Of a stretch of DNA of 64,000 bases, positions 20,112-43,925 are shown one piece after another. This stretch comes from Chloroflexota bacterium (GTDB lineage: Bacteria > Chloroflexota > Limnocylindria > Limnocylindrales > CSP1-4). The notes under the pieces are model-generated. The model made no database searches. It had not been told where the DNA came from and saw nothing but the letters and a program-made list of their open reading frames with translations. The first letter of the stretch is position 1. Each line of letters opens with the position of its first letter. The translations under genes were made by a program, and so were the position numbers. The stretch spans positions 41,214 through 105,213 of the forward strand of contig PLMA01000058.1 in assembly GCA_003141455.1 (NCBI GenBank). Reading direction: 5' to 3'.

Positions 20112-21839
20112 CTAGAACAGGCCGACGATGTTCCCGTCCGCGTCGATGTCGATCGACTCGCCGGCCGGGTGCGAGGGCAGGCCCGGCATAGTGCGCATCT
20201 CGCCGAGCAAAGGCGTGATGAAGCCGGCTCCGGCAGATAGATGAACTTCGCGGATGGGAACCCGGAAGCCGGTGGGCCGGCCCTTCAAGGACGGATCGTG
20301 GCTCAGCGAGAGGTGAGTCTTCGCCATGCAGACCGGCAGCTTCCCGTAACCCAGCTCCTCGTACAGCTTCAAGGCCTTCGTGGCGGCCGGCAGCTCGTCA
20401 ACGCCCCGGGCGCCGTAGATGCGCACCGCGATCGTCTCGATCTTCTCGCGGAGCGGGGCGTCGTCCGGGTAGAGGAACTGGAAGTCCGGCGCCCCAACCT
20501 GCGCCGCGGACCAGACGGCACGGGCCAGGTCCTCCGCGCCCGCTCCCCCGTCGGCGAAGTGGCGGCTGACGACGACCTCGCGCGCGCCCGCGGCCAGAGC
20601 CACTTCCCGAATCGCGGCAGCCTCCGCCTCCGTGTCGGTGGGGAAGTGGTTGATGGCCACGACCACCGGAACGTTGAAGACGCGCACGTTCTCGATCTGG
20701 GCGGCCAGGTTGGCCGAGCCGCGCCGGACCGCCTCCACGTTCTCTTCCTCGAGAGCCGGATCGAGCGGCTTGCCGGCCACGATCCGGCCGACGCCGCCGT
20801 GCATCTTGAGCGCCCTGACCGTCGCCACCATGACCGCCGCGTCCGGCCGCAGCCCGCTCTGGCGGCACTTGATGTCGAAGAACTTCTCGGCGCCCATGTC
20901 GGCACCGAAGCCGGCCTCGGTGCACGCGATCTCGCAAGTGGCCAGCGCCAGCCGATCGGCCAGGACGCTGTTGTTGCCGTGGGCGATGTTGGCGAACGGG
21001 CCGCAATGGACGAAGGCGGGCCCGCCCTCGAGGGTCTGCAGAAGGTTCGGCTTGATCGCGTCGAGCAGCAGGACCGTCATCGAGCCCGCGCACCGCAGGT
21101 CCTCGGCGGTGATGCGGCGGCCGTCGAAGGTGGTGGCGACGACCATTCGACCGAGTCGCGCCCGCAGGTCGTGGATGTCGGAGGCGAGCGCGAGAGCCGC
21201 CATCACCTCGCTGGCGACTGTGATCTGCCATTCGGTCTCGCGCGGGTAGCCGTTCTCGCGACCGCCCATCCCGACGATCGCCTTTCGGAGAGCCCGATCG
21301 CTGATGTCGACGACCCGCGGCCACAGGACGCCCAGCGGGTCGATGCCGTGCGGGTTGCCGTGGGTCAGAGAGTTGTCGACGAAAGCCGCGAGCAGGTTGT
21401 GGGCCGCCCCGACGGCGTGGTTGTCGCCGGTCAGGTGGAGGTTGAAGTCCTCCATCGGGATCACCTGGCTGTAGCCACCGCCCGCGGCGCCGCCCTTGAT
21501 CCCGAAGACCGGGCCGAGCGAAGGCTGGCGGATGCAGACCGCCGCCTTGTGTCCGAGGCGGTTCAATCCCTGGACCAGGCCGATGTTCGTGGTTGTCTTG
21601 CCCTCGCCGAGAGGCGTTGGCGTGATCGCGGTCACGACGACGTACTTGCCGCGTTTGCCCTTGGCCGCGGCTTCGGCCTCCAGCCGCTCGATCCCTTCGA
21701 GGCGAACCTTGGCCTTGAAGGGTCCGTACAGCTCCACTTCGTCGTCGCGCAGCCCGAGCTCTCGGGCGAGGTCCATGATCGGCCGCGGCGAAACGGAGCG
21801 GGCGATCTCGAGGCTGCTGGGCATACCACCGCCGCTCAT
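20112..21839 (-). CDS. fhs: Formate-tetrahydrofolate ligase
   Basis: The 575-residue enzyme interconverts formate + THF + ATP and 10-formyl-THF + ADP + Pi. ATG 21839 (MSGGGMPSS) has GGAGG 7 nt upstream; the ORF start at 22010 overlaps folD and is rejected. The P-loop TPTPLGEGKTTT (about 73-84) and conserved FGIKGGAAGGGYSQVIPMEDFNLHLTGD, DMGAEKFFDIKCR and MPGLPSHPAGE blocks are intact. It is the third gene of fchA-folD-fhs, 40 nt after folD. In a histidine-degrading cell it can run backwards to recover ATP and formate from one-carbon units. Confidence 0.96.
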   Translation of the reverse strand: MSGGGMPSSLEIARSVSPRPIMDLARELGLRDDEVELYGPFKAKVRLEGIERLEAEAAAKGKRGKYVVVTAITPTPLGEGKTTTNIGLVQGLNRLGHKAAVCIRQPSLGPVFGIKGGAAGGGYSQVIPMEDFNLHLTGDNHAVGAAHNLLAAFVDNSLTHGNPHGIDPLGVLWPRVVDISDRALRKAIVGMGGRENGYPRETEWQITVASEVMAALALASDIHDLRARLGRMVVATTFDGRRITAEDLRCAGSMTVLLLDAIKPNLLQTLEGGPAFVHCGPFANIAHGNNSVLADRLALATCEIACTEAGFGADMGAEKFFDIKCRQSGLRPDAAVMVATVRALKMHGGVGRIVAGKPLDPALEEENVEAVRRGSANLAAQIENVRVFNVPVVVAINHFPTDTEAEAAAIREVALAAGAREVVVSRHFADGGAGAEDLARAVWSAAQVGAPDFQFLYPDDAPLREKIETIAVRIYGARGVDELPAATKALKLYEELGYGKLPVCMAKTHLSLSHDPSLKGRPTGFRVPIREVHLSAGAGFITPLLGEMRTMPGLPSHPAGESIDIDADGNIVGLF

Positions 21840-21879
21840 AGAGCAGCCTCCGGGCTGTTGGGCGTGGGCGCGGCCGGGT

Positions 21880-22803
21880 TCATCGCGGTGCGCCCTGGGC
21901 GACCGCGGTACCCAGCTCGGCCTGGTCCGTGGCGGCCCGCAGCAAGTGGCTGAGCAGCAGAGCGTTGGTGAGCGGCCCGACGCCGCCCGGCACCGGAGTG
22001 ATGGCCGCAACCACGTCCTTCGCCGACTCGAAGTCCACGTCGCCTACGAGCTGCTCGCCCACCACGTTGATCCCCACGTCCACGACGACGACTCCAGGGG
22101 AGAGCATCTCCCCGGTAACGAGGCCCGGGCGGCCGGCGGCTACGATCAGGATCTCGGCGTCACGGGTGTGATGGCCCAGGTCCCGGGTCTTGGAATGCAG
22201 CACCGTGACGCTGCCGTGCTCGCGCAGCAGGAGCAGCGCCGCGGGCTTGCCGACCACGTTCGACCGCCCGATGACGACGACGCGCTTGCCGGCGATCTCG
22301 ATCCCCGAGCGCTTCAGGATCTCGACCGAGGCCTGGGCCGTGGCCGGCAGGAAGCCTTCATAGCCCAGGGACAGCAGTCCTGCGTTGCGGGGGTGGATAC
22401 CGTCGATGTCCTTGGCCGGATCGATCGAATCGATGACCGTTCGCAGCGGGATGTGCGCCGGCAGCGGCATCTGGACGATGATCCCCGCCACGGCCGGATC
22501 GGCGTTTAGGCGTTCGATCTCCGTGCAGAGCGCGTCGGCCGTCACGTCCGCGCCGATCTCGACCAGCCGACCGTTGACGCCGACCTTCTCGCACGTGCGA
22601 AGGATCTGCCGCAGGTACACCGCCGACGGGGCGTCCGCGCCGACGAGAACGATCGCGAGACTCGGCGAGTAGCCCCAGCGCACCTTGAACCGCGCGAAGC
22701 CCTCGGTCAGGCTCGCCCGAATCTCGGCCGCGATCGGGCCGCCCGCCAGCAGCCGCGGACCGGCTTGGGCCGGGGCGATCGCTCCCTCTCCGGGGGCGGT
22801 CAT
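21880..22803 (-). CDS. folD: FolD-type methylene-THF dehydrogenase lacking the catalytic lysine
   Basis: The 307-residue Rossmann-fold protein is clearly FolD by length and by VQMPLP (Q111), AKDIDGIHP (D134), GRSNVVGKP (~179-187) and ITPVPGGVGPLT. Against the E. coli segment Y-V-A-S-K-R-K-A-C-E-E-V-G it reads YLRQILRTCEKVG. The catalytic Lys54 is thus Ile67, the second Lys is Arg, and the usual PCTP is PATA (153-156). Family knowledge: this lysine is needed for cyclohydrolase and less strictly for dehydrogenase activity. Inference: this is a mono-functional dehydrogenase. It overlaps fchA by 4 bp (translational coupling), and fchA encodes an enzyme able to supply the cyclohydrolase step. Confidence 0.9.
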   Translation of the reverse strand: MTAPGEGAIAPAQAGPRLLAGGPIAAEIRASLTEGFARFKVRWGYSPSLAIVLVGADAPSAVYLRQILRTCEKVGVNGRLVEIGADVTADALCTEIERLNADPAVAGIIVQMPLPAHIPLRTVIDSIDPAKDIDGIHPRNAGLLSLGYEGFLPATAQASVEILKRSGIEIAGKRVVVIGRSNVVGKPAALLLLREHGSVTVLHSKTRDLGHHTRDAEILIVAAGRPGLVTGEMLSPGVVVVDVGINVVGEQLVGDVDFESAKDVVAAITPVPGGVGPLTNALLLSHLLRAATDQAELGTAVAQGAPR

Positions 22804-23468
22804 TCGTCCTCCGGATCGCGGACCTTACCGGAAAGCACGGTCTCGCGAGTCCGCGCCGCCACGGCCGCGATGTCGTGGAGGGCCTCGTCGAGCTGACGGC
22901 TCATTGTCTCGTTGTAGCCCTCGTCGCCGGTGGAGGGCAGGTTGATGTTGACGTTCTCAGCGGCACCGCGCGCGGCCGCCTCGCCCAGGAGCGCCGCCAC
23001 GAGGACGTCGCTCGCCGCGTTGACGTTGCTGCGGCCCGCCAGCGCGTCGGCGGCGTTGACAAGGGCGACGCATGCCTTCACGCATTCCCATGGCGCATCG
23101 GACGCAGCTCGCGCCGCCGTCTCGATGGCCGCCTTCCGGGCCGCCAGCTGCGTCTCGGTCTCGCGGGGCAGCTTGAGAGCGGCCGCGTAGCCGGCGTATG
23201 CCTCGGCGTCTCTGTCGGCCAACCGCAGGAACTCGGAAGCCAGGGTTCGACCGCCTTCGCCACAACGGGCGAGAGTCATCTCATAGGCTGCGTACTTGGC
23301 CCGGCCGGTCGAGAGGCTCGCGACCATCGCCACGAGCGACGCCCCTAACGCTCCCGCCAGTGCCGAGGCCGCTCCTCCTCCGGGAACAGGCTCAGCCGAC
23401 GAAAGGCTCTCGGTGAACTGGCGAACCGTCAGATCCGCGAACGATTCGGGCTTGGATGCTTGGTCCAT
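22800..23468 (-). CDS. fchA: Formimino-THF cyclodeaminase / methenyl-THF cyclohydrolase
   Basis: The 222-residue, mainly helical protein is of the FTCD_C (cyclodeaminase/cyclohydrolase) family. Hallmarks are PVPGGGAASALAGALGASLVAMVA near residues 28-51, the DAEAY segment, and SNVNAASDVLVAALLGEAAARGAAENVNINL. The family converts 5-formimino-THF to 5,10-methenyl-THF + NH3, and some members hydrolyse methenyl-THF to 10-formyl-THF. It completes the FtcD reaction encoded at 4005-4967 and feeds FolD and Fhs. ATG 23468 has no Shine-Dalgarno site but has TACAAT 6 nt upstream, indicating a leaderless operon start. First gene of the operon. Confidence 0.92.
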   Translation of the reverse strand: MDQASKPESFADLTVRQFTESLSSAEPVPGGGAASALAGALGASLVAMVASLSTGRAKYAAYEMTLARCGEGGRTLASEFLRLADRDAEAYAGYAAALKLPRETETQLAARKAAIETAARAASDAPWECVKACVALVNAADALAGRSNVNAASDVLVAALLGEAAARGAAENVNINLPSTGDEGYNETMSRQLDEALHDIAAVAARTRETVLSGKVRDPEDE

Positions 23469-23550: not shown

Positions 23551-23820
23551 TCAGTCCCAACAAACCTCGTCGTCCACGCCGTCGACCGTCCAGCGGCGCG
23601 ACCAATGCTGGAAGCTCAAAGCCAGGCGAGCGCCGGGCGTCTCGACCTCGAAGACGGTTCGGGGCCCTACGGCGGCTTTGTAGGCCGAGTGTTCTCGACG
23701 AACGGCAGTGAGCCGTCTCACCGGCAGGCGGACCTGGCCCCAGGTGATCTCGCGCGGGGTGCCGTCGAACCAGTCGGCTCGAACGCGCACATCCACAGGC
23801 TCCATGCGGACGATGGCCAT
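23551..23820 (-). CDS. SOS-controlled DUF6504-like small protein
   Basis: The 89-residue soluble protein (MAIVRMEPVDVRVRADWFDGTP) has the pattern I associate with DUF6504: RADWFDGTPREITWGQVRLPVRRL, an AVRREHSAY centre and a final SFQHWSRRWTVDGVDDEV. That family is uncharacterised and is often annotated near or fused to Y-family polymerase genes; this association is from memory. AGAGGAG lies ~9 nt before ATG. Its promoter has a perfect -35 and carries two LexA boxes (23878-23930), so it should be among the tightly repressed, damage-induced genes. No catalytic motif is visible. It stands alone. Confidence 0.7.
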   Translation of the reverse strand: MAIVRMEPVDVRVRADWFDGTPREITWGQVRLPVRRLTAVRREHSAYKAAVGPRTVFEVETPGARLALSFQHWSRRWTVDGVDDEVCWD

Positions 23821-23877
23821 TGTGGTTGCTCCTCTTGCCTTTGGCGGGCCGTCGCTCGCTCGGGCATTGAGCGGGAT

Positions 23878-23930
23878 GAACGGACGTTCTATTACTAACC
23901 AAATCTACCTGAACGGATGTTCTATGTCAA
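23878..23930 (-). promoter_or_regulatory. Promoter with two LexA (SOS) boxes
   Basis: On the minus strand TTGACA (plus 23925-23930), a 17-nt spacer and TAGATT (plus 23902-23907) form a strong sigma-70-type promoter. GAAC-GGAT-GTTC (plus 23911-23922) fills the spacer. A second box, GAAC-GGAC-GTTC (plus 23878-23889), covers about +6 to +17. Box starts are 33 bp apart, near three helical turns. Both fit the Gram-positive LexA consensus GAAC-N4-GTTC. Confidence 0.85.
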
Positions 23931-24079
23931 GGTTTGACGTTTCGAACGTCCGGTCATGGCAAGAGGATCGCCGGCGCGGGTGACAGCTAGCGTGGCACGG
24001 CGGAGGCGTCGCTCGGGTCGACTTATCGCAGCGCCCTCCGCCCGGTCTGGAATACGGGCGGCCAGTCGGGCACGGGCGC

Positions 24080-30027: not shown

Positions 30028-30143
30028 GGCTAGCCCTCGTCCTCGACTTTCGGCACGCCCACGCGGCCCTCCACCGCTGAGGCGGGATCGCGCTCGAAGG
30101 GTGCCGGCAGCGGCCGATGCAGCAGGCTGGCGCGGGTGACGGC
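30028..30143 (-). repeat. 116-bp direct repeat, copy B (3' end of intact dinB)
   Basis: This is the native copy of the repeat at 27811-27926 and includes the dinB stop codon. The repeats are in the same orientation, about 2.2 kb apart, and enclose the sigma/anti-sigma-like pair. Identity ends abruptly at GACGGC on the dinB-internal side of both copies. Confidence 0.9.
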
Positions 30144-31277
30144 GCGATCGCCGAAGCGCCGCCGGACCGCGTCCGTCGCGGCGACCACGCGCCGCTGCCT
30201 GGATTCCACGACCTCGAACATGGTCGTCTGCTCGGGCTGGCCGAGCTGAGTCGCCGCGACCCCGAGAAGCCGGATCTTCTTGCCGCGGACCTCGGGCCGG
30301 GTCAGCTCGAGCGCCGTCCGCCAGATCGGCTCCGTCAGGTCCGACGGCTCGGGCAGATGCTTCTGGCGGGTGACCGTCCGGAACTGCGAGTCGCGGATCT
30401 TGACCGCCACCGTCCCGGCGCGCAGGCCGGCGGCTCGCAGCCGGGCGGAGACCCCCTCGGTCAAGGCGAGCAGCGTGCGCTCGATTTCGGCCGGGTCCGT
30501 CACGTCGACCGCGAAAGTGGTCTCGTGGCTCACGGATTTCGCCGCTTCGCCGCCGCCGACCACCGGATCCGCGTCGATGCCCAGCGCTCGATCGTGCAGT
30601 GTCCCCCCGTGATCGCCGAGAGCGCGCGCCAGCGTCTCGACCGGCAGCGCCGCCAGTTCGCCGATCGTTCGAATCCCGAGTCCGTGCAGCCGCTCGGCCG
30701 TCTTGGGCCCGATTCCCCAGAGCCGCCGGATCTCGAGCGGGGCCAGGAAGGCCGCCTCCTCGCCGGGCTGCACGACCACCAGGCCGTCGGGCTTGCGCAG
30801 GTCGCTGGCCACCTTGGCGATCAGCTTGTTGGTCGCCACGCCGACCGAGACGGTGAGCTCCGTGGCCGCGACCACCTCGGTCTTGATACGGCGGCCGATC
30901 TCCGGCGCGGTCCCGAAGAGCGCCTCCGAACCGGCGACGTCCAGGAAGGCTTCGTCGATCGAGACCTGCTCGACTGCCGGCGTGAAGCGCCGCAGCACGG
31001 CCATCACCTCGCGGCTGACGCGCTGGTACTTGGCCCCGTCGACAGGCAGGAAGATCCCCTGCGGGCAGAGCCCGAGCGCCGTCCGGAGAGGCATGGCCGA
31101 ATGCACGCCGAACCTGCGAGCTTCGTAGCTGCAGGTGCTCACGACGCCGCGGGACCGCGGGTCGCCGCCGACGATCACCGGCTTGCCGCGCAGCTCGGGG
31201 CGGTCGCGCTGCTCCACCGCGGCGAAGAAGGCGTCCAGGTCCACGTGGATGATGTGGAGGCGGCCGACCGTGGTCAT
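30030..31277 (-). CDS. dinB: DNA polymerase IV (Y-family translesion polymerase)
   Basis: The 415-residue enzyme copies damaged DNA. Catalytic acidic residues are visible in HVDLDAFFA (near residue 12) and SIDEAFLD (near 105), with SVGVATNKLIAKVASDLRKPDG, two helix-hairpin-helix-like segments (RRLWGIGPKTAERLHGLGI) and a little-finger domain (~240-345). The final ~60 residues form a basic extension; the very end is duplicated at 27811-27926. I see no clear Shine-Dalgarno site and no GAAC-N4-GTTC box upstream of ATG 31277, so it does not look LexA-controlled. No beta-clamp peptide is certain. Confidence 0.94.
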   Translation of the reverse strand: MTTVGRLHIIHVDLDAFFAAVEQRDRPELRGKPVIVGGDPRSRGVVSTCSYEARRFGVHSAMPLRTALGLCPQGIFLPVDGAKYQRVSREVMAVLRRFTPAVEQVSIDEAFLDVAGSEALFGTAPEIGRRIKTEVVAATELTVSVGVATNKLIAKVASDLRKPDGLVVVQPGEEAAFLAPLEIRRLWGIGPKTAERLHGLGIRTIGELAALPVETLARALGDHGGTLHDRALGIDADPVVGGGEAAKSVSHETTFAVDVTDPAEIERTLLALTEGVSARLRAAGLRAGTVAVKIRDSQFRTVTRQKHLPEPSDLTEPIWRTALELTRPEVRGKKIRLLGVAATQLGQPEQTTMFEVVESRQRRVVAATDAVRRRFGDRAVTRASLLHRPLPAPFERDPASAVEGRVGVPKVEDEG

Positions 31278-32206: not shown

Positions 32207-32263
32207 CCGGGCCGGGGTTGGCCGGATCGCCCGCAAATCGAGGTGCATGAGGAGTCAGGGCCG

Positions 32264-33304
32264 ATGACCGATGTCTCGCGGGAACGGATGGCGGCCCAGC
32301 TTCTCACCGGACCTCCCGCCTCGGCCGCGGTAGATGTCGTGGAGAGGCTGCTGGCCGTTCAGGCACAGGATCCTCGTGGAGCGCGCCTGGCGATTCGAGC
32401 CCGGAGTGTCGGCCTCGTGGCCGGCGACGTGGACCGGGAGCTGACCCAGGACCGCGCCCTGGTGGTTTCGTGGCTGAATCGCGGCACGCTCCATCTGGTG
32501 CGCCGCGAGGACTATCCCTGGCTGCAGCAACTCACGACGCCGCAGCTCCTCAGCGGCAATACCCGCCGCCTGGCGCAGCTGGGCGTCACGCTCGACGCGG
32601 CCGATCGAGGCGTGGCCGCGCTGGGTCGAGCTCTCGAGGACGAGGGTCCGCTCACCCGGGATCAGCTCCGCGTGCGCATCTCCGCGGCCGGCGTCCGCAC
32701 CGAAGGCCAGGCGCTGGTTCACATCCTGGCGCTCGCGAGCCTGAGGGGCATCATCGTCCGTGGCCCGATGGTCGGCCGCGAGCAGGCGTTCGTGCTCGTG
32801 CGAGATTGGCTGGGGGAGATCGAGGCGGTCGATCGCGAACGTGCCCTGGCCTGGATGGCGAGACGCTACCTGGCGGGGCACGGCCCGGCCGACGAGCGCG
32901 ACCTGGCGAAATGGGGCGGTCTGACGATCCGCGACGCGATCCGCGGGCTGCGGGCGATCGGATCGGATCTCGTTCAGAGAGACGACGGGCTCGTGGACCT
33001 TGCCCGGGCGGATTCGGCAGAAGAGATTCCGCCGCCGCGCTTGCTCGGGGCCTACGAGCCGCTCTTGCTCGGCTGGCGCTCCCGAGAGGGCTTCGTCCCG
33101 TCCCACAGGGAGCGGCTGATCGCCGACAACGGGCTGTTCCGGCCCTTCGCACTGGTGGGCGGTCGGGCGGCCGGCACATGGACCCTTCGAGGGGGCGCGG
33201 TCTCGCTCAATCCGTTCGAGCCGCTTGCTCCCGGCGATAGTGCCGCACTCGAGGCGGACGCTACGGATGTCGTCCGGTTTCTGGGAGGCGCCGCCCCGGG
33301 GTGA
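32264..33304 (+). CDS. AlkZ/YcaQ-like winged-helix DNA-binding protein (HTH_42)
   Basis: The protein has 346 residues from ATG 32264 (MTDVSRERMAAQLL); ATG 32243 would add seven residues. HTH_42 proteins consist of three tandem winged helices. The N-terminal AVQAQDPRGARLAIRAR segment contains the Q-x-Q pair that is catalytic in AlkZ-type glycosylases, which unhook interstrand crosslinks. WLNRGTLHLVRREDYPWL and PLLLGWRSREGF are further family blocks. Whether this member is an active glycosylase is inferred. It fits the local DNA-repair theme (ada, dinB, SOS-boxed gene). 57 nt after the LLM gene on the same strand. Confidence 0.78.
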   Translation: MTDVSRERMAAQLLTGPPASAAVDVVERLLAVQAQDPRGARLAIRARSVGLVAGDVDRELTQDRALVVSWLNRGTLHLVRREDYPWLQQLTTPQLLSGNTRRLAQLGVTLDAADRGVAALGRALEDEGPLTRDQLRVRISAAGVRTEGQALVHILALASLRGIIVRGPMVGREQAFVLVRDWLGEIEAVDRERALAWMARRYLAGHGPADERDLAKWGGLTIRDAIRGLRAIGSDLVQRDDGLVDLARADSAEEIPPPRLLGAYEPLLLGWRSREGFVPSHRERLIADNGLFRPFALVGGRAAGTWTLRGGAVSLNPFEPLAPGDSAALEADATDVVRFLGGAAPG

Positions 33305-43226: not shown

Positions 43227-43255
43227 TTGACAATCGAACGGGCGTTCTGTACCCT
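43227..43255 (+). promoter_or_regulatory. lexA promoter with LexA (SOS) box
   Basis: TTGACA (43227-43232), a 17-nt spacer and TACCCT (43250-43255) form the promoter. The spacer contains GAAC-GGGC-GTTC (43236-43247), matching the Gram-positive LexA consensus. LexA binding would occupy the space between -35 and -10 and block RNA polymerase, giving autorepression. The layout matches the promoter at 23878-23930. Confidence 0.85.
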
Positions 43256-43274: not shown

Positions 43275-43925
43275 GTGACCAAGCACGACGCGGAACGCAA
43301 ACGCAAGATCCTGGACTTCATCGCCGCGACGCTTCGCACGCGCGGCTATCCGCCGTCCGTCCGTGAGATCGCCGTCGCCGTGGACCTGGCTTCCACCTCG
43401 GCGGTCCACCACCACCTCCAGATGCTCGAGCGTGAGGGCTACCTGGAGCGCGGGGCCGCTCAGTCGCGGGCCATCCGCCTGACGCCGCTGGCCGCCATGC
43501 GCCTCGGGCTCTCCGGCGAGCTGATGCCACAGTCCGTCGCCTCGGAGGCTCACGTCCTGCCGATCGTCGGCGAGATCGCCGCCGGTGGTCCTATCGAGGC
43601 CTACCAGGACGCGTCGGAGAGCATGGCCGTACCGGATCTGCTGGCGCCCTCCGGAGATGCGTACGTCCTGCGCGTCCGGGGCGATTCGATGATCAACGCC
43701 CACATCCAGGACGGGGACTTCGTCCTGATCCGGCCCCAGCAGACGGCCCGTGATGGGGACATCGTGGTGGCGCAGGTGGAAGAGAACGCCGTCACTCTCA
43801 AGCAGTTCTTCAAGGAGGCCGGGCGGATCCGGCTCCAGCCCGCCAACCCGGACTACCCGGCCATGTTCTACAACGACGTCCGGATCCAGGGGAAGCTCAT
43901 CGGGGTCATCCGCCGGCTGGACTGA
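43275..43925 (+). CDS. lexA: LexA repressor
   Basis: The 216-residue SOS repressor starts at GTG 43275 with AGGAGG ~6 nt upstream; the ORF start at 43227 would lie inside the promoter. The N-terminal winged HTH has the recognition helix near SVREIAVAVDLASTSAVHHHL. The latent serine protease has S138 (GDSM) and K176 (VTLK), and the self-cleavage site is A103-G104 (EIAAGGP). All catalytic residues are intact. DNA damage and RecA filaments trigger self-cleavage and release of targets, which here include lexA itself and, by box sequence, the gene at 23551-23820. dnaB follows 109 nt downstream. Confidence 0.96.
   Translation: MTKHDAERKRKILDFIAATLRTRGYPPSVREIAVAVDLASTSAVHHHLQMLEREGYLERGAAQSRAIRLTPLAAMRLGLSGELMPQSVASEAHVLPIVGEIAAGGPIEAYQDASESMAVPDLLAPSGDAYVLRVRGDSMINAHIQDGDFVLIRPQQTARDGDIVVAQVEENAVTLKQFFKEAGRIRLQPANPDYPAMFYNDVRIQGKLIGVIRRLD

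Follow-up and report, generated by a model that had tools for sequence, protein, structure and literature searches.

LexA-type promoter of the 89-aa gene

The stretch of DNA analysed here (the window, 64 kb of a Chloroflexota genome) holds lexA, dinB and a gene for a protein of 89 residues, and it raises the question of which function at this locus is placed under the strictest DNA-damage control and what the small protein does. The following features bear on the promoters:

23551–23820, minus strand: 89-aa gene (protein P0001), most likely a diverged standalone ImuB-C (DUF6504-like); ATG at 23820, stop end at 23551
23829–23835, minus strand: AGAGGAG, probable ribosome-binding site of the 89-aa gene, by direct reading
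23878–23889: proximal LexA box GAACGTCCGTTC (minus strand), 3' of the predicted start site, conserved in homologs
23902–23907, minus strand: -10 TAGATT of the LexA-controlled promoter of the 89-aa gene, from sequence and promoter scan
23911–23922: distal LexA box GAACATCCGTTC (minus strand), within the -35/-10 spacer, from pattern match and homologs
23925–23930, minus strand: -35 TTGACA of the same promoter, from sequence and promoter scan
23944–23955: degenerate third box GAACGTCCGGTC, retaining the 33-bp register, function doubtful
43236–43247: the one LexA box of lexA, lying in the spacer of TTGACA(43227)-17-TACCCT(43250), from pattern match
43275–43925, plus strand: lexA, with LexA DNA-binding domain and S24 peptidase, from domain match

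The initial annotation had described the promoter of the 89-aa gene as TTGACA, a 17-nt spacer and TAGATT with two GAAC-N4-GTTC boxes 33 bp apart, and this description was confirmed. A scan by consensus of 1.6 kb around the gene gave a single match (shuffle mean 0.1), and exact GAAC-N4-GTTC was observed three times in the window against 0.66 expected, twice at this gene and once at lexA. The two promoters share a frame, TTGACA and the -10 being separated by 17 nt with a box in the spacer. When the proposed genome-wide box census was carried out by pattern searches, the composite TTGAC-N2-6-GAAC-N4-GTTC was found at three places only (the 89-aa gene, lexA and an imuA-imuB-imuB-C-dnaE2 cluster), with no match to the reversed pattern. 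Given the same box and frame as in lexA's own promoter, and their conservation, the 89-aa gene is a predicted member of the LexA (SOS) regulon. We set aside the third box at the 33-bp register as a real site, since it is not conserved: among the homologs only the nearest relative shares one, in weaker form.

Conservation of the two-box arrangement

Homologs of the 89-aa gene are present in 129 of 177 genomes of the class, and among 251 genomes sampled across the phylum none was found outside three families (f1, f2 and f5). For these families we examined 260 bp of upstream sequence at 127 homologous loci, two of the loci being repeat copies of genes already included. In 121 loci there are exactly two perfect boxes, both within 140 bp, and one of them, almost always the distal box, has TTGAC a few bases upstream, at a distance that is nearly constant in most homologs. 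The remaining six loci have one perfect box each, accompanied in five by a second box with one mismatch. Spacing between the boxes is 32–37 bp in f1 (one locus with 24), 30 or 23 bp in f2 and 27–35 bp in f5 (one with 42), so that 33 bp is not a fixed number. For comparison, a single box was counted at lexA in 43 of 44 loci and at imuA in eight of nine, and dinB has no box upstream in 124 of 125 (some genes being represented in several loci in each count). Because lexA and imuA carry one box and dinB none, the double box is a property of the 89-aa gene, and the arrangement is not due to chance. Two further statements of the initial annotation, that this gene has more boxes than lexA and that dinB lacks one, are therefore supported, the latter for the whole class.

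Identity of the 89-aa protein

Searched as a single sequence against Pfam and NCBIfam, the 89-aa protein gave chance matches only and none to PF20114, the best of three weak matches to that family among 28 homologs having an E-value of 0.051. The canonical ImuB-C of the same genome also falls under the PF20114 cut-off (20.3 versus 24.2). Using a family profile built from the 28 homologs, hhalign comparison with long DUF6504 proteins of other Chloroflexota gave an E-value of 2e-6; the match to the short DUF6504 type was stronger (probability 96.7, E 4.7e-10), and that to canonical ImuB-C with Deinococcus sequences added reached a probability of 97.1 and an E-value of 6.7e-11. The earlier label 'DUF6504-like' is thus upheld by profile–profile comparison and not by the Pfam cut-off. 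In the reverse direction, the canonical ImuB-C profile scores the 89-aa family at a median of 22.8 bits, the best of 1250 scored shuffled decoys reaching 11.0, and a genome search with it recovers the family's own loci at E-values of 1e-7 to 1e-4. DUF6504 genes adjoin dnaE2 in eight of 20 loci, and several of these have a Y-family polymerase gene on the other side; an exact GAAC-N4-GTTC lies no more than 200 bp upstream of six copies.

The AlphaFold model of the 89-aa protein is soluble and all-beta with seven strands (pLDDT 86), and these come in the same order as the core strands in the model of the canonical copy (pLDDT 91). Residues W77, R41 and R54 are invariant in the family, in agreement with the conserved positions described as hallmarks of ImuB-C, namely one C-terminal Trp and two basic residues (PMC3765255). 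A PDB sequence search with the family profile found no match, and a PDB fold search with the model found nothing usable (best E 0.6), as would be expected if, as reported, ImuB-C has a new fold (PMC12926913). From these comparisons the protein is most likely a standalone ImuB-C (DUF6504) of diverged sequence, and belongs with the small beta-barrel proteins that assist error-prone polymerases as accessory subunits. Judged by sequence, the family is a separate branch, confined to three families of one Chloroflexota class. The dedicated DNA-damage role first proposed for the gene is likewise supported.

Gene neighbourhood

Standalone ImuB-C most often adjoins DinB and LexA (PMC3765255). The two-box gene, lexA and dinB are likewise neighbours in f1, f2 and f5, and within these families the 89-aa gene follows dinB/lexA; in f3 and f4, dinB occurs and the 89-aa gene is missing. 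The lexA and dinB genes are not constant in order or strand: dinB is divergent from the 89-aa gene in f2, lies 6 kb from it in the window, and directly follows lexA in f5, where it is therefore probably SOS-controlled anyway. An AlkZ-like DNA glycosylase is encoded near dinB in the window (32243–33301, plus strand), and a relative lies between dinB and lexA in locus L130.

The double lock on this gene could also be explained by a SulA-type SOS checkpoint of growth or division, or by some other product that harms growing cells. Genes needing very tight control, for example those of the colicins, are known to carry double LexA boxes. Colicin control has been described as both delayed and tight (PMC4482635). 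We consider such a product very unlikely here, since both the family to which the protein belongs and the genes around it speak for translesion synthesis, and the model is that of an all-beta, soluble protein.

Downstream of the 89-aa gene, on the same strand in most loci, are FTCD_C, folD and formate-THF ligase (fhs). In the window these conserved neighbours occupy 20112–23468 (minus strand), the second being folD-like. With the four genes on one strand, a gap of 82 bp to FTCD_C and a negative terminator search, the promoter might serve the folate genes, providing one-carbon units for dTMP and purines in repair, with the 89-aa gene as a leader. This is highly improbable, as the 89-aa protein is itself conserved and the gap ranges from about 60 to several hundred bp. 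In addition, in locus L117 the folate genes lie beside lexA, away from the 89-aa gene, whose promoter is nevertheless retained, one of its boxes being perfect and the other nearly so; this arrangement counts against a promoter that exists for the folate genes.

Proposed partnership with DinB and relation to the mutasome

Two further features concern the probable partner of the 89-aa protein:

30030–31277, minus strand: dinB (Pol IV), active-site motifs intact by motif reading, no LexA box upstream
30120–30188, minus strand: RecA-NT-like motif VVAATDAVRRRFGDRAVTRASLL near the DinB C-terminus, defined after PMC6511836

Y-family polymerases that are believed to contact RecA and to partner ImuB-C are recognised by a motif of this type (PMC6511836). 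On the strength of this motif and the intact active site, we propose a complex of DinB, RecA and the ImuB-C-like protein, of the kind represented by Geobacter lexA-imuB-C-polY, in which the 89-aa protein is likely to be the SOS-inducible accessory subunit of Pol IV in translesion synthesis. Neighbourhood and published precedent suggest the partnership with DinB; the dinB products of f3 and f4 count against it, having the same RecA-NT-like tail in families without the 89-aa gene, as does the distance of 6 kb between the two genes in the window.

The initial annotation had gone further in supposing that this gene, and not Pol IV, may be the primary inducible function. Its predicted SOS control stands, and action in place of Pol IV is unlikely, since family, neighbourhood and the RecA-NT-like tail of DinB suggest that the protein works with Pol IV rather than instead of it. 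It is not the only predicted inducible translesion function either: in the same genome the imuA-imuB-imuB-C-dnaE2 cluster has its own predicted LexA promoter and carries a canonical ImuB-C of 82 aa between imuB and dnaE2. A canonical standalone ImuB-C at this position, with imuA in the same cluster, is seen in locus L112 (7195–7440, minus strand), whereas the standalone ImuB-C systems in a published survey are without imuA (PMC6511836). The canonical ImuB-C of this genome gave no match when searched against plasmids, and a search with a relative found the Deinococcus cassettes.

Such a cluster invites a different assignment, in which the 89-aa protein would be a second ImuB-C for the ImuA-ImuB-DnaE2 mutasome, taking the place of the canonical one or adding to it, and bind DnaE2 instead of serving DinB. 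Both proteins belong to one family, both genes are predicted to be LexA-controlled in this genome, and ImuB-C has been modelled on the DnaE2 PHP domain (PMC12926913). We nonetheless regard this assignment as unlikely, since in the examined loci the 89-aa gene adjoins dinB/lexA and not dnaE2, and since the sister family f2, with genomes of about 1 Mb, keeps the 89-aa gene and dinB, most of its genomes having one Y-family match. Canonical ImuB-C is present in f1, f3, f4 and f5 and nearly absent from f2, where it was convincing in two of 19 genomes, the other matches being the 89-aa gene itself. The diverged copy is therefore independent of the mutasome in its distribution. Co-occurrence with imuB/dnaE2, which had been suggested as a check, is accordingly not the rule, the small f2 genomes mostly lacking both canonical ImuB-C and a second Y-family match.

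A predicted PafBC-like promoter upstream

A predicted second damage promoter, probably independent of LexA, lies further upstream and was overlooked in the initial annotation:

23980–23998, minus strand: inverted repeat GTGCCA-CGCTAGC-TGTCAC, core of the predicted upstream PafBC-like (WYL-type) promoter, from homolog comparison
23964–23969, minus strand: -10-like GATCCT (NANNNT) of this promoter, separated from TGTCAC by 10 nt; 56 of 59 homologs have ANNNT at the same distance

Among the loci read, 59 from f1 have an inverted repeat GTGACA-N7-TGNCAC upstream of the LexA promoter, and NANNNT follows it by exactly 10 nt in 56 of them. Other offsets have counts of five or fewer, except offset 25 (14), a position that in many homologs coincides with the -35 TTGAC of the LexA promoter. 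The mycobacterial PafBC promoter consensus is tTGTCRgtg-8-TAnnnT (PMC5656591), and TGTCA-C-N10-SANNNT conforms to its register of TGTCR with nAnnnT 11 nt later. We also considered whether an activator of the LexA promoter might bind the repeat, from a ten-bp phasing to the -35 (27–32, 36–40 and 46–50), and set this aside, noting that both could hold; a promoter of its own is favoured because the NANNNT offset is fixed and the same layout precedes other genes.

A search of the 177 class genomes for the strict composite GTGACA-N7-TGNCAC-N10-NANNNT found it in most f1 genomes (it is absent in a few genera), at a few sites per genome, with one match to the reversed pattern and two in all non-f1 families together. 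Clustering and Pfam place the following genes after the motif: the 89-aa gene, a UvrD helicase with PD-(D/E)XK nuclease, DnaB, DEAD helicases, RecB-like nucleases including the TM0106 family, a calcineurin-type phosphoesterase resembling SbcD, and a gene for 421–440 aa that lies beside Ku in L256 and L264. The product of the last, which is without Pfam match, was seen behind the motif in 13 sequences (L264:770–2035, minus strand; L261, L266 and L345). Individual sites are G000:C6:72549, C58:84210, C44:3841 and window 23964–23998, with further sites in loci L227–L267 and L324–L353. By their sequence and the genes that follow, the motif-bearing promoters look like a LexA-independent DNA-damage regulon in f1. 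One WYL-WCX protein with a weak PafC-HTH match is encoded in the genome and is a candidate regulator; WYL proteins also occur in f2 and f5, families without the motif.

Proposed mechanism

In the undamaged cell, one LexA dimer would occupy the -35/-10 spacer and another the transcript start, so that the 89-aa gene would stay silent until both leave, with low leakage and delayed induction. We therefore infer a late, high-threshold SOS gene. The proximal box would, in addition, block transcripts arriving from the upstream promoter, whose activator is probably a WYL-type regulator that does not depend on LexA. The newly made 89-aa protein would join RecA and DinB, the latter with its RecA-NT-like tail, in a translesion complex, SOS control thus being placed on the accessory subunit and not on the polymerase. 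A broader possibility, which we offer tentatively and hold at slightly less than even, is that f1 runs a LexA-independent, PafBC-like damage regulon, driven by a WYL-type sensor, that meets the SOS response at the ImuB-C-like gene. A damage-sensing activator and the double LexA lock would then act on one gene, and Pol IV mutagenesis would be licensed via the accessory subunit.

Comparison with known systems

This locus may offer a clean natural case for the little-understood standalone ImuB-C, as it is an accessory subunit, and not a polymerase, on which SOS control appears to be strongest. With an active Pol IV nearby and apparently no mutasome in the small-genome relatives, the role of ImuB-C can be tested apart from the mutasome. 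The motif-bearing promoters in addition indicate a PafBC-like damage regulon in Chloroflexota, the published cases found being those of Actinobacteria (PafBC) and Caulobacter (DriD).

The 89-aa protein resembles known standalone ImuB-C/DUF6504 proteins (PMC3765255; PMC6511836; Deinococcus lexA-imuY-imuB-C-dnaE2, PMC8072749) in size, seven-stranded all-beta structure, C-terminal Trp, lexA and Y-family polymerase neighbours, SOS control and a profile E-value of about 1e-10. It differs in a sequence below the Pfam cut-off and a separate branch, and its gene differs in having its own promoter with two LexA boxes, outside a lexA operon, and in coexisting with a canonical ImuB-C. The Geobacter lexA-imuB-C-polY operon is damage-induced and has the same three components, including an active Y-family polymerase with a RecA-NT-like motif (PMC6511836). 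There they form one transcript, whereas in the family of the window lexA, dinB and the 89-aa gene are separate units with two boxes only at the last.

For the upstream promoter, the closest parallel is mycobacterial recA P1/P2 (PafBC and LexA, PMC5656591), where a LexA-independent TGTCR-N11-nAnnnT promoter likewise stands beside the LexA promoter of one gene; in the present promoter the upstream half consists of an inverted repeat, GTGACA-N7-TGTCAC, and the gene is not recA. Caulobacter DriD (PMC12340889) is similar in being a WYL-type activator of repair genes with a GAC-N7-GTC inverted repeat, compared with GAC-N9-GTC in the present case. Set against these systems, the 89-aa protein is a diverged member of the known standalone ImuB-C group, and what is new is the conservation of the double LexA lock on its gene, where two predicted damage promoters also converge.
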